DNA from: Cohnella cholangitidis
GTDB taxonomy: Bacteria > Bacillota > Bacilli > Paenibacillales > Paenibacillaceae
Direction of reading: 5' to 3'
DNA: 64,000 bases
Assembly: GCF_014107495.1 (NCBI RefSeq)
Contig: NZ_CP041969.1
Span: forward strand, 2,443,501-2,507,500
The position numbers and the translations under genes were made by a program. Shown piece by piece: positions 20,941-45,127 of the stretch. Position 1 is the stretch's first letter. Each line of letters opens with the position of its first letter. A model generated the notes under the pieces. It was not told the origin of the DNA, did no database searches, and worked only from the letters and a program-made list of their open reading frames with translations.

Positions 20941-20975
20941 AAAAAAGAGCAGACGTGCTTACGCACGTTGCTCTT
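20941..20975 (-). terminator. Intrinsic terminator of the ZTP-type riboswitch
   Basis: On the minus strand GAGCAACGTGC-GTAA-GCACGTCTGCTC is followed by six T residues. It begins directly after the conserved 3' end of the aptamer, the usual arrangement of a riboswitch expression platform. Confidence 0.9.
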
Positions 20976-21051
20976 TGCCCAGGCGACCGGCCGTCATTCC
21001 GATGCTCCACCGTGGTATGCTCCACTTGTCGTCGCCAGTTACATCGGAACC
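20976..21051 (-). promoter_or_regulatory. ZTP/ZMP (pfl-type) riboswitch aptamer before ywlG-glyA
   Basis: The minus strand shows, in order, an outer stem TTCCGATG/CATCGGAA (21049-21042 and 21003-20996), the conserved TAACTGGCG, the CCACGGTGGAG block (consensus CCACGGGGAG with one extra base) and the invariant CGCCTGGGCA at 20985-20976. This class senses the purine intermediates ZMP/ZTP and turns on purine and folate genes such as glyA and purH. It fits glyA as target through ywlG. The only other content of the 353-base gap 20775-21127 is a small AGGTAT/ATACCT hairpin with an overlapping TATAAT at about 20855, a possible second promoter. Confidence 0.88.
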
Positions 21052-21127
21052 TTGAAGTTGTAGCTTAATCATACCTAAGGAAACGACAAAAATCAATTAT
21101 CTTCTTTCGCTCGCGAATTTGGAAATA

Positions 21128-43368: not shown

Positions 43369-44808
43369 TTAAACACTCTTCTTCTCCGCGATCGCACGGG
43401 CGATCCATACGCCCGCCGCGCCGGCTTGCGCCAACCCGCGGGTGACTCCCGCTCCGTCCCCGCCGCAGTATAGGCCGGAAATTTCCGTTTCCAACGTCTC
43501 GCTCAGCTTAGGGCGGGCCGAATAGAACTTGGCCTCTACGCCGTAGAACAAAGTATGCTCCGAAGCGATGCCCGGCGTGACCCTATCAAGCGCTTCTACC
43601 ATCTCGATCAAGCTCTTCATCGTGTTGTAAGGAAGCACCAACCCCAGATCGCCCGGAACCGCTTCATGCAAAGTCGGCTCGATAAACCCTTCCTTGATCC
43701 TGCTCGTCGTAGAGCGGCGTCCTCTTAGGATATCCCCGAACTTCTGGACGATCACGCCGCCGCTAGAGAGATCGTTGGCCCGTTTGCAGATTTCGCGGGC
43801 GTACTCGTTCGGCTTATCGAATGGATCCGTGAATTTGTGAGACACAAGCAAGGCGAAGTTCGTATTGCTCGAACCTAGAGCCGGATCCTTGAAAGCATGC
43901 CCGTTCGCCGCCATGACCCCGCTGTGGTTTTCCACGACGACGTGTCCGGAGGGATTGCTGCAGAACGTCCTGACCCGCGTCCCTACGGACGTATTGTAAA
44001 TGAATTTCCCCTCGTACAGGTGCTCGTTGATTTCCCGCATGACGACATCGGACGTTTCCACCCGAACGCCCACGTCAACTTGATTGTTGACCATTGCCAG
44101 CCGGCGCTTTTTCAGAACGGCGGTTAACCAGCCCGAACCGTCCCGCCCCGGCGACACGACGACCGTATCCGCCATGATCTCTTCGCCGTTCTTGAGCGTA
44201 ATCCCGCATACCCGGTGCGCGCCGTTCTCCTTAACGCTCAAGAGGTCGACGACCTCCGTCTTGAAACGCATATCGATGCGGCTTTCCAAATAGGCATGGA
44301 TAGACTTTAGAATCTCCAAATTTTGCTCCGTGCCGAGATGGCGGACTTGCGCCCTCAGCAGCTTCAATCCGGCCGCATACCCTCTGTGCTCGATCCCCTT
44401 AACGAACTCGGTCGTCGGATCGGTCAAGTTATCCGTCGCCCCATGCTCAAGGTTGATCTCGTCTACGTAGCGGATAAGATTCAGCACCTGCGAAGGAGCC
44501 AAGTAATCCGTCAGCCATCCGCCGAATTCCGTCGTAATGTTGAATTTACCGTCGCTGTAAGCTCCCGCTCCGCCGAACCCCGCCGTAATCGAACATGCCG
44601 GCATGCATCCGGCGAAGTCTTTTTTCCCCGCGGGAGGGGGACATAGCTCGATTTTATTTTCCAGGATCGGACAGTGCCGATGTTTAATGTCGTGCCCTTT
44701 ATCCACTAGCAGCACTTTCAAGCGCGGAGAAGTTCTTGTCAACTCGTAACAAGTGAAAATACCGGCCGGACCGGCGCCAACCACGATAACGTCATAAGAA
44801 CGGTTCAT
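43369..44808 (-). CDS. FAD-dependent oxidoreductase of COG2509 type, under a purine riboswitch
   Basis: Cytoplasmic flavoprotein, 479 aa, biochemically uncharacterised. The N-terminal Rossmann motif YDVIVVGAGPAGIFTCYEL binds FAD; central TEFGGWLTDYLAPSQ and VVSPGRDGSGW, and the C-terminal CGGDGAGVTRGLAQAGAAGVWIARAI, are the family's nucleotide-binding hallmarks. The start MNRSYDV follows GGAGGAGATTTGCGA; upstream in-frame codons run into the riboswitch terminator. It has its own promoter and guanine-type riboswitch, which implies that its activity is wanted when guanine or hypoxanthine is scarce. Confidence 0.85.
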   Translation of the reverse strand: MNRSYDVIVVGAGPAGIFTCYELTRTSPRLKVLLVDKGHDIKHRHCPILENKIELCPPPAGKKDFAGCMPACSITAGFGGAGAYSDGKFNITTEFGGWLTDYLAPSQVLNLIRYVDEINLEHGATDNLTDPTTEFVKGIEHRGYAAGLKLLRAQVRHLGTEQNLEILKSIHAYLESRIDMRFKTEVVDLLSVKENGAHRVCGITLKNGEEIMADTVVVSPGRDGSGWLTAVLKKRRLAMVNNQVDVGVRVETSDVVMREINEHLYEGKFIYNTSVGTRVRTFCSNPSGHVVVENHSGVMAANGHAFKDPALGSSNTNFALLVSHKFTDPFDKPNEYAREICKRANDLSSGGVIVQKFGDILRGRRSTTSRIKEGFIEPTLHEAVPGDLGLVLPYNTMKSLIEMVEALDRVTPGIASEHTLFYGVEAKFYSARPKLSETLETEISGLYCGGDGAGVTRGLAQAGAAGVWIARAIAEKKSV

Positions 44809-44849
44809 TCGCAAATCTCCTCCTGGTATCCCCGATAGCCGGAACAAAC

Positions 44850-44904
44850 AAAAAAATCCCCGACTGCCGAAGGTGTGGGTGTCCCACATCCTTCGTAGTC
44901 AGGA
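44850..44904 (-). terminator. Riboswitch expression-platform terminator
   Basis: Minus-strand arms TCCTGACTACGAAGGATGTGGG and CCCACACCTTCGGCAGTCGGGGA (with mismatches) enclose ACA and are followed by seven T residues. The 5' arm shares the aptamer's P3 and P1 3' strands, so ligand binding and termination are mechanically linked. Confidence 0.88.
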
Positions 44905-44959
44905 ATTTAAGGTTCCCGGTAGAGACCCCCAGCCCATATTGCCGAGGATATACGAATGG
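44890..44959 (-). promoter_or_regulatory. Purine (guanine-type) riboswitch aptamer
   Basis: Minus strand matches the class: P1 TTCGTA/TACGAA, the J1/2 and L2 region TATCC...AATATGG, the J2/3 TCTCTACC, P3 CGGGAA/TTCCTG with the L3 CCTTAAAT, and J3/1 GACTACG. The base that sets ligand choice is C (GAC rather than GAT), predicting guanine/hypoxanthine binding. Transcription begins at its own promoter just upstream (45022-44994). In this class ligand binding normally stabilises termination, turning expression down. No other gene lies in the 319-base gap. Confidence 0.92.
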
Positions 44960-44993
44960 ATGAATAGATTGAACAATGTCGTTTCCAATACGT

Positions 44994-45022
44994 AGAGTAA
45001 CCGATTTTTACGTACTGGTCAA
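44994..45022 (-). promoter_or_regulatory. Promoter of the riboswitch and FAD oxidoreductase
   Basis: TTGACC (45022-45017), a 17-base spacer and TACTCT (44999-44994) on the minus strand, about 35 bases before the aptamer. It separates this gene from the transglutaminase operon. Confidence 0.75.
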
Positions 45023-45127
45023 GGGACATTCGTCTCAAACATTCGTAATTAAACGCCAATATTGCACCATCCACTATATAAACCCTAGAATTCGTCCCGA
45101 ATTCCCGAACAATATCTTTTTTCACCT

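Follow-up and report, generated by a model that had tools for sequence, protein, structure and literature searches.

A guanine-type purine aptamer, arranged so that its ligand should permit transcription, lies behind a putative PurR-type operator and upstream of a gene for an FAD-dependent flavoprotein. We consider it probable that this guanine-ON riboswitch and the operator together control a flavoprotein that replaces GMP reductase. The window, by which we mean the whole stretch of DNA analysed, covers 64,000 nucleotides of Cohnella cholangitidis, and all coordinates below refer to its minus strand. The proposal provides a testable function for a strongly conserved flavoprotein family whose sole close solved relative is uncharacterised. 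If it is true, the step from guanine to adenine nucleotides would have two unrelated solutions in Bacilli, almost on an either/or basis.

The aptamer and its pairing with the flavoprotein gene

An Rfam covariance search placed a full-length RF00167 match (model positions 1–102) at 44975–44876, with 75.8 bits against a gathering threshold of 37 and an E-value of 1.1e-11. All four nucleotides of the binding pocket are present, namely U22 (44950), U47 (44925), U51 (44921) and C74 (44898), in a numbering that we take to be that of the xpt structure. A guanine-type purine aptamer had been proposed here in a preliminary description, with a covariance search against RF00167 as the check, and it is confirmed by the score and by the pocket; from C74 we infer that the ligand is guanine. 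Positions C54 and G72 are paired in the window aptamer, which has no insertion, and the same two positions are unpaired in 56 of 75 distinct aptamers, where they can be read as one extra nucleotide per side. The genome contains four RF00167 matches in all, the other three preceding genes read as an NCS2 permease (L002), purE (L003) and an EamA-like transporter (L004). Elsewhere in the window, a ZTP riboswitch (RF01750, 57.8 bits, gathering threshold 39) lies at 20970–21052 upstream of the open reading frames 20774–20223 and 20130–18880, the second of which reads as a serine hydroxymethyltransferase; this arrangement is ordinary.

The regulated gene (43369–44808, 479 amino acids) is preceded by the ribosome-binding site AGGAGG (44819–44824) and encodes a predicted substitute for GMP reductase, an assignment that draws on its Pfam domains, its relative 3NLC, its invariant residues and near-exclusion with guaC. 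Upstream of the aptamer, a putative −35 element TTGACC (45017–45022) is separated by 17 nt from a putative −10 element TACTCT (44994–44999), a weak match, and a strict promoter scan of the leader reports no promoter and neither element. The promoter of its own that had been claimed for the leader is thus a weak point, resting on the string itself (45022–44994), and similar TTGAC-like strings followed by TAnnCT about 17 nt on can be seen by eye in many Cohnella leaders.

Conservation of the pairing was examined in the best 80 of 524 close protein relatives, which with the window make 81 loci. A covariance model (R1) was built from the aptamers of 23 relatives, the window included, leaving 58 of the 81 loci outside the training set. 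It finds one aptamer in every locus, no more than about 450 nt upstream of the flavoprotein gene and with scores of 63.7–96.6 bits; the window scores 92.9 bits as one of the 23 training sequences. The retention of aptamer and gene together in relatives, by which the preliminary description proposed to judge its reading, is thus seen at every one of the 81 loci, made up of the window and the best 80 of 524, and RF00167 itself matches upstream of the gene in all 13 Paenibacillus and Brevibacillus loci tested. Scores on R1 are not specific to the flavoprotein gene, as guaC leaders reach 72.4–84.7 bits and adenine-type leaders up to 78.7, with purE-, pbuG-, guaA- and xpt-like leaders at 47.6–62.8 bits. 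Pocket nucleotides U22, U47, U51 and C74 are invariant in all 81 aligned aptamers, and positions 24, 48, 54, 72 and 73 vary. The helices covary, with 10 pairs changed on both sides against a shuffled mean of 4.9, as counted on an alignment fitted to the same structure. A simpler search with a regular expression for the core gave 18 of 80 loci, all but one from Cohnella, and had suggested that the aptamer is absent in Paenibacillus; Rfam and R1 show this to be a failure of the expression.

Direction of the switch

The terminator hairpin of the window (44854–44908, −32.2 kcal/mol) belongs to the minimum-energy fold of the leader and is followed by seven T (U-run, 44850–44856). Its 5′ arm is composed of the 3′ strand of aptamer P3, J3-1 and the 3′ strand of P1, which agrees with the sharing of P1 and P3 strands noted in the preliminary description. 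Eleven of the 12 aptamer positions 68–79 are paired into this hairpin; with P1 intact, the structure that can still form beside the U-run has only −2.3 kcal/mol.

The same layout was found in 85 leaders, comprising the 81 loci and L145, L147, L148 and L182, when the terminator was chosen as the lowest-energy hairpin ending at a T-run 28–130 nt after C74. All 85 terminators take up 7 or more of the 12 positions. Changes at position 73, one of the variable positions, are matched by changes in its terminator partner. It has no such partner in four of the 85, and in the remaining 81 it forms a Watson-Crick pair in 70 and a G-T pair in 11; the mean Watson-Crick count under 10,000 permutations was 38.8 and the maximum 55. 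With P1 intact across the leaders, the median energy of the hairpin remaining at the U-run is 0 kcal/mol, compared with −28.4 kcal/mol when the aptamer strand takes part, and a residual hairpin of −8 kcal/mol or lower is seen in just 4 of 81 leaders; this energy-based count replaced a looser one that had given 34 of 81. The terminator takes its 5′ arm from 3′ strands of the aptamer, so only one of the two structures can exist at a time, and ligand binding should permit transcription. An ON switch in which the ligand prevents termination is therefore well supported. In L168, whose protein is 72% identical, the terminator seems by eye to take the 5′ strand and the loop of P3 as well, and the leader still looks ON.

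Sixty-two RF00167 matches from ten related genomes, with L216 left out, served as a control census and were scored by the same 12 positions. Scores are 8–12 for the flavoprotein leaders in this set, 11–12 for five C74U leaders and 0 for the L002 and L003 leaders of the window genome. Leaders before purE, pbuG, guaA and xpt, as read from N-termini, mostly score 0–6, the exceptions L123, L223 and L231 reaching at least 7. Scores of 0–2 are obtained for four xanthine-II-like leaders (L250, L251, L256, L258), and since their class is described as ON, a low score is no proof of an OFF switch; the test is also imperfect in that the core of L211 was wrongly picked. A first automatic classification into ON and OFF proved noisy and was set aside: it gave no terminator for the flavoprotein leader L243 and called L217, L223, L224, L235 and L239 ON, all five being purE-, pbuG- or guaA-like leaders.

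Several other leaders were seen alongside. In L004, L260, L261 and L262, a divergent RF00167 aptamer with an ON-type terminator precedes a gene read as an EamA-like transporter, which suggests purine efflux. The C74 aptamers of L236, L237 and L246, also with ON-type terminators, precede enzymes named 5′-deoxyadenosine deaminase, of which L236 and L246 exceed the NF005557 cut-off; ligand and substrate have no obvious match in these three. C74U (adenine-type) ON aptamers in L207, L209, L228, L240 and L255 stand before genes read as adenosine deaminase, adenine deaminase, purine nucleoside phosphorylase and an MFS transporter. L257 comes from a genome in the same genus as the window; its aptamer precedes an 8-oxoguanine deaminase (NF006055, 590 bits against 532) and has a J2-3 that is one U shorter, making it a candidate 8-oxoguanine riboswitch.

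The PurR-type operator and the distribution of guaC

According to PMC8789054, the PurR operator consists of 14-bp boxes with a central CGAA/TTCG and a 16–17 bp spacer. Transcription is repressed by PurR and induced by PRPP, and guaC of B. subtilis is named there as one of the genes with PurBoxes to which PurR binds. Forty upstream regions of the flavoprotein gene from wider Bacilli, spread over families and including the distant paralogues L183 and L184, were scanned for the inverted pair CGAAC..GTTCG; all shuffled controls for this pair keep base composition rather than dinucleotides. The pair is exact in 17 of the 40 (shuffled mean 0.01) and present with at most one mismatch in 27 (shuffled mean 1.0), or in 25 once L145 and L148, where the match overlaps the aptamer or terminator, are discounted. 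The exact boxes lie 29 nt apart at 11 of the loci, 30 nt at five and 31 nt at one, with four other distances once each, a spacing that agrees with the PurBox rule of PMC8789054. Within 293 kb around 20 flavoprotein genes, 11 of the 12 exact pairs lie no more than about 220 nt upstream of the flavoprotein gene. RF00167 matches only 6 of the 40 regions. The preliminary description held that relatives with the gene and lacking the aptamer would speak against its reading, and the outcome is mixed: 34 regions do lack the aptamer, and 23 of these carry the PurR-type pair with at most one mismatch, 15 of them exactly.

The operator also precedes the aptamer in the 81 aptamer-bearing loci, in which pairs were counted outside the aptamer. 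Here the pair is exact in 2, present with at most one mismatch in 18 (shuffled mean 0.7, maximum 3) and with at most two in 52 (shuffled mean 6.1, maximum 13). Among Cohnella-type leaders, 17 of 18 have a pair with at most two mismatches, 16 of them at a distance of 31 (shuffled mean 1.8, maximum 8). The window copy is degenerate, its PurBox 1 core ACGAAT (45041–45046) and PurBox 2 core GTACG (45011–45015) being paired at a distance of 31 with two mismatches from the ideal; GTACG or GTGCG occupies the second position in 16 of 18 Cohnella-type leaders. The operator is a second purine signal, independent of the RNA, and PurR is the protein that would be expected to bind it.

Because the PurR/PRPP logic, together with a riboswitch demand for guanine, suits a conversion of guanine nucleotides to IMP, guaC was searched for across 398 Bacilli genomes. 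Of these, 158 contain a match to the flavoprotein, the list from which the 40 upstream regions were drawn. In 139 it was taken as an orthologue (E < 1e-130), and among these are five f8 genomes whose best matches cover the C-terminal two thirds only. The Bacilli-type guaC (TIGR01306) is found in 163 of the 398 at E 1e-90, all above the curated cut-off. Both genes occur together in 2 genomes against 56.9 expected (Fisher p 5e-39, phylogeny ignored) and, by genus, in 4 of 146 genera against 17.3 expected. Neither gene is present in 98 of the 398 genomes, so the step is dispensable. Species carrying one gene and species carrying the other occur together within families f1, f20, f30 and f49, as they do within the genera f1 g13 and f1 g18. 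In the window's own family, guaC is found in 4 of 148 genomes, none of which has the flavoprotein, a result that is weak by itself. A GMP reductase of the E. coli type (TIGR01305) could have accounted for the missing guaC, and this was ruled out by its presence in 0 of 398 genomes; the window genome has neither TIGR01306 nor TIGR01305 at E 1e-90. As a control, the adenine deaminase gene ade shares 24 genomes with the flavoprotein where 33.6 would be expected (p 0.016, by an approximate draw), a deficit that exists but is far weaker than that of guaC at 2 against 56.9.

The two genomes with both genes differ. In G324, which is marked as 8% contaminated, the flavoprotein homologue (L283) is without the N-terminal FAD motif, none of the three forward reading frames of the retrieved sequence encoding one, and G462 is the sole genome with an intact flavoprotein and guaC. 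The guaC genes of both have no PurBox pair, as in 2 of 18 other guaC leaders. When 20 guaC upstream regions, picked from the 163 before scanning, were examined, the PurBox pair was found with at most one mismatch in 16 (shuffled mean 0.42) and exactly in 7 (shuffled mean 0). Four of the 20 (L270, L275, L278, L282) also carry an RF00167 aptamer of 73.6–85.3 bits in addition to the PurBox pair; they have the same overlapping terminator, with 9–12 of 12 positions paired, and their R1 scores of 72.4–84.7 bits fall inside the range of the flavoprotein leaders. Some Bacilli thus have a similar double control upstream of guaC, and others have it upstream of the flavoprotein gene. The suggestion of the preliminary description that the gene fills a missing step in purine salvage gains support from the pairing in 81 of 81 loci, from the PurR-type operator and from near-exclusion with guaC.

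Proposed function, alternatives and related systems

The flavoprotein exceeds the Pfam cut-offs for FAD-depend_C (33.1 bits, cut-off 27) and Pyr_redox_2, which bears out the FAD protein first proposed as the regulated gene, of a type presumably named COG2509. Among proteins of solved structure, a sequence search at E 0.001 matched the uncharacterised VP0956 (3NLC) alone. The predicted fold (pLDDT 78, pTM 0.83) also matches 3NLC best, followed by generic FAD oxidoreductases, and gives no hint of a substrate; residues 47–75 and 80–85 are of low confidence. The protein is 61–85% identical in most Bacilli genomes that carry it, and the residues invariant among 34 sequences include C46, C68, C72 and C283. 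No recurring purine gene was found among its neighbours, where no cluster apart from the flavoprotein gene itself occurs in more than 16 of 80 loci. At 20 distant loci, 18 of them orderable, genes read as bioB-like follow in two and a CoA-transferase/aminotransferase cluster in three; in L186 and L189, from two distant families, a gene read as biotin-synthase-like comes after the flavoprotein gene.

Near-exclusion with guaC and shared control suggest that the flavoprotein stands in for GMP reductase. The reaction would be the reductive deamination of GMP (or guanine or guanosine). GuaC uses a cysteine at C2 together with a hydride, and a cysteine and FADH2 could do GuaC-like chemistry in the flavoprotein, the hydride perhaps coming from FADH2 and the cysteine being one of the four invariant ones. 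In the proposed mechanism, the 3′ strands of P3, J3-1 and P1 would be drawn into the long terminator when guanine is lacking, and transcription would stop; bound guanine would lock P1 and J3-1, no terminator would form and the gene would be transcribed. High PRPP is expected to make PurR allow transcription. The gene would then be on while purine nucleotide synthesis is running and guanine is abundant, a pattern that is the logic expected of a GMP-to-IMP conversion. Whether the flavoprotein forms a second, unrelated GMP reductase family that converts GMP (or guanine) to IMP (or hypoxanthine) by means of FAD we regard as evenly balanced, and we are of two minds to the same degree on whether such an enzyme is widespread in Bacilli lacking GuaC, with one large clade switched by guanine through RNA. 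Among the matches listed in our searches, no title or abstract connects an ON-type purine aptamer with GMP reductase or with the flavoprotein family; an association of flavoprotein and aptamer may be listed in the figures or supplements of PMC9295807.

A flavoprotein within the same guanine-ON and PurR regulon could instead perform another guanine step, such as the oxidation or detoxification of guanine or 8-oxoguanine, and the exclusion of guaC would then mainly reflect lineage; this we judge possible and distinctly less probable than replacement of GMP reductase. The structure and literature search found no biochemistry of the flavoprotein family, and the ten-genome census includes ON-type purine aptamers before catabolic or export genes, among them the 8-oxoguanine deaminase of L257 and the 5′-deoxyadenosine deaminases of L236 and L246, all above NCBIfam cut-offs, and the transporters read as EamA-like in L260–L262, of which L260 was scanned and falls below the cut-off of its only family. 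Lineage does not sit well with the occurrence of both states inside families f1, f20, f30 and f49 and genera f1 g13 and f1 g18, nor another step with the same operator type and an ON-type aptamer at some guaC genes.

The aptamer might also bind a relative of guanine, such as 8-oxoguanine, hypoxanthine or xanthine, in place of guanine itself. We think this unlikely, as none of the 81 aptamers departs from the four contact nucleotides, the strings TCTACA/TTTCTACA and TGGCTAC recur in the aptamers L210, L217 and L231, whose genes read as pbuG-like, and the sole aptamer before an 8-oxoguanine deaminase (L257) has one U fewer in J2-3. What keeps another ligand in play is the variation at positions 24, 48, 54, 72 and 73, together with the Paenibacillus pocket variants with other ligands and the only about 10-fold selectivity of guanine-I against hypoxanthine and xanthine that are described in PMC9295807. 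A guanine OFF switch repressing the flavoprotein gene, as the preliminary description had it, is very improbable. Guanine riboswitches do commonly lower expression when guanine is plentiful, and guanine-I of Paenibacillus is described as an OFF switch in PMC9295807; here, formation of the strong terminator uses up strands of the aptamer, only a small hairpin or none remains at the U-run in most leaders if these are taken away, and the shared strands give the ON layout in 85 of 85 leaders, so guanine repression is not borne out.

The preferred reading, a guanine-ON switch behind a PurR-type operator, draws on parts with known counterparts. The PurR regulon, with inverted CGAA/TTCG boxes 30–31 nt centre to centre, is recognisable by sequence in the relatives, and the putative copy in the window is degenerate. 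GuaC (TIGR01306) resembles the flavoprotein system in its PurR-type operator (16 of 20 guaC leaders), its ON-type aptamer (4 of 20) and its complementary distribution, whereas the proteins are unrelated by sequence, the flavoprotein having FAD-binding domains and no IMPDH/GMPR match (TIGR01306, TIGR01305) at E 0.001 in Pfam and NCBIfam searches. VP0956 from PDB entry 3NLC, for which we know of no purine link, is the best match in both sequence and fold and is 24% identical in the fold alignment.

Among the riboswitches, the adenine-type ON class (C74U), which we take to be the pbuE type, has the same terminator layout, with five census leaders at 11–12 of 12, but carries U at position 74, where the flavoprotein aptamers have the C of guanine-type pairing in 81 of 81. 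Guanine-II, described as ON in Paenibacillus, and xanthine-II share the predicted ON direction and the occurrence in Paenibacillus; both carry insertions in J2-3 and J3-1, the J2-3 insertion of guanine-II being a single nucleotide, and xanthine-II also has U51G (PMC9295807). In contrast to xanthine-II, the flavoprotein aptamers keep U51 in 81 of 81, and the J2-3 insertion is absent in 79 of 81 and present in 2. Guanine-I (xpt type, RF00167) is alike in its three-stem junction and its U22/U47/U51/C74 pocket, with matches far above the gathering threshold, and differs in its usual OFF platform, whereas in all 85 leaders analysed here the terminator draws on 3′ strands of the aptamer itself. The flavoprotein aptamer is a guanine-I pocket on an ON platform, and throughout a large clade a guanine-type aptamer would act in the ON direction, as against the guanine-I described as OFF in Paenibacillus.
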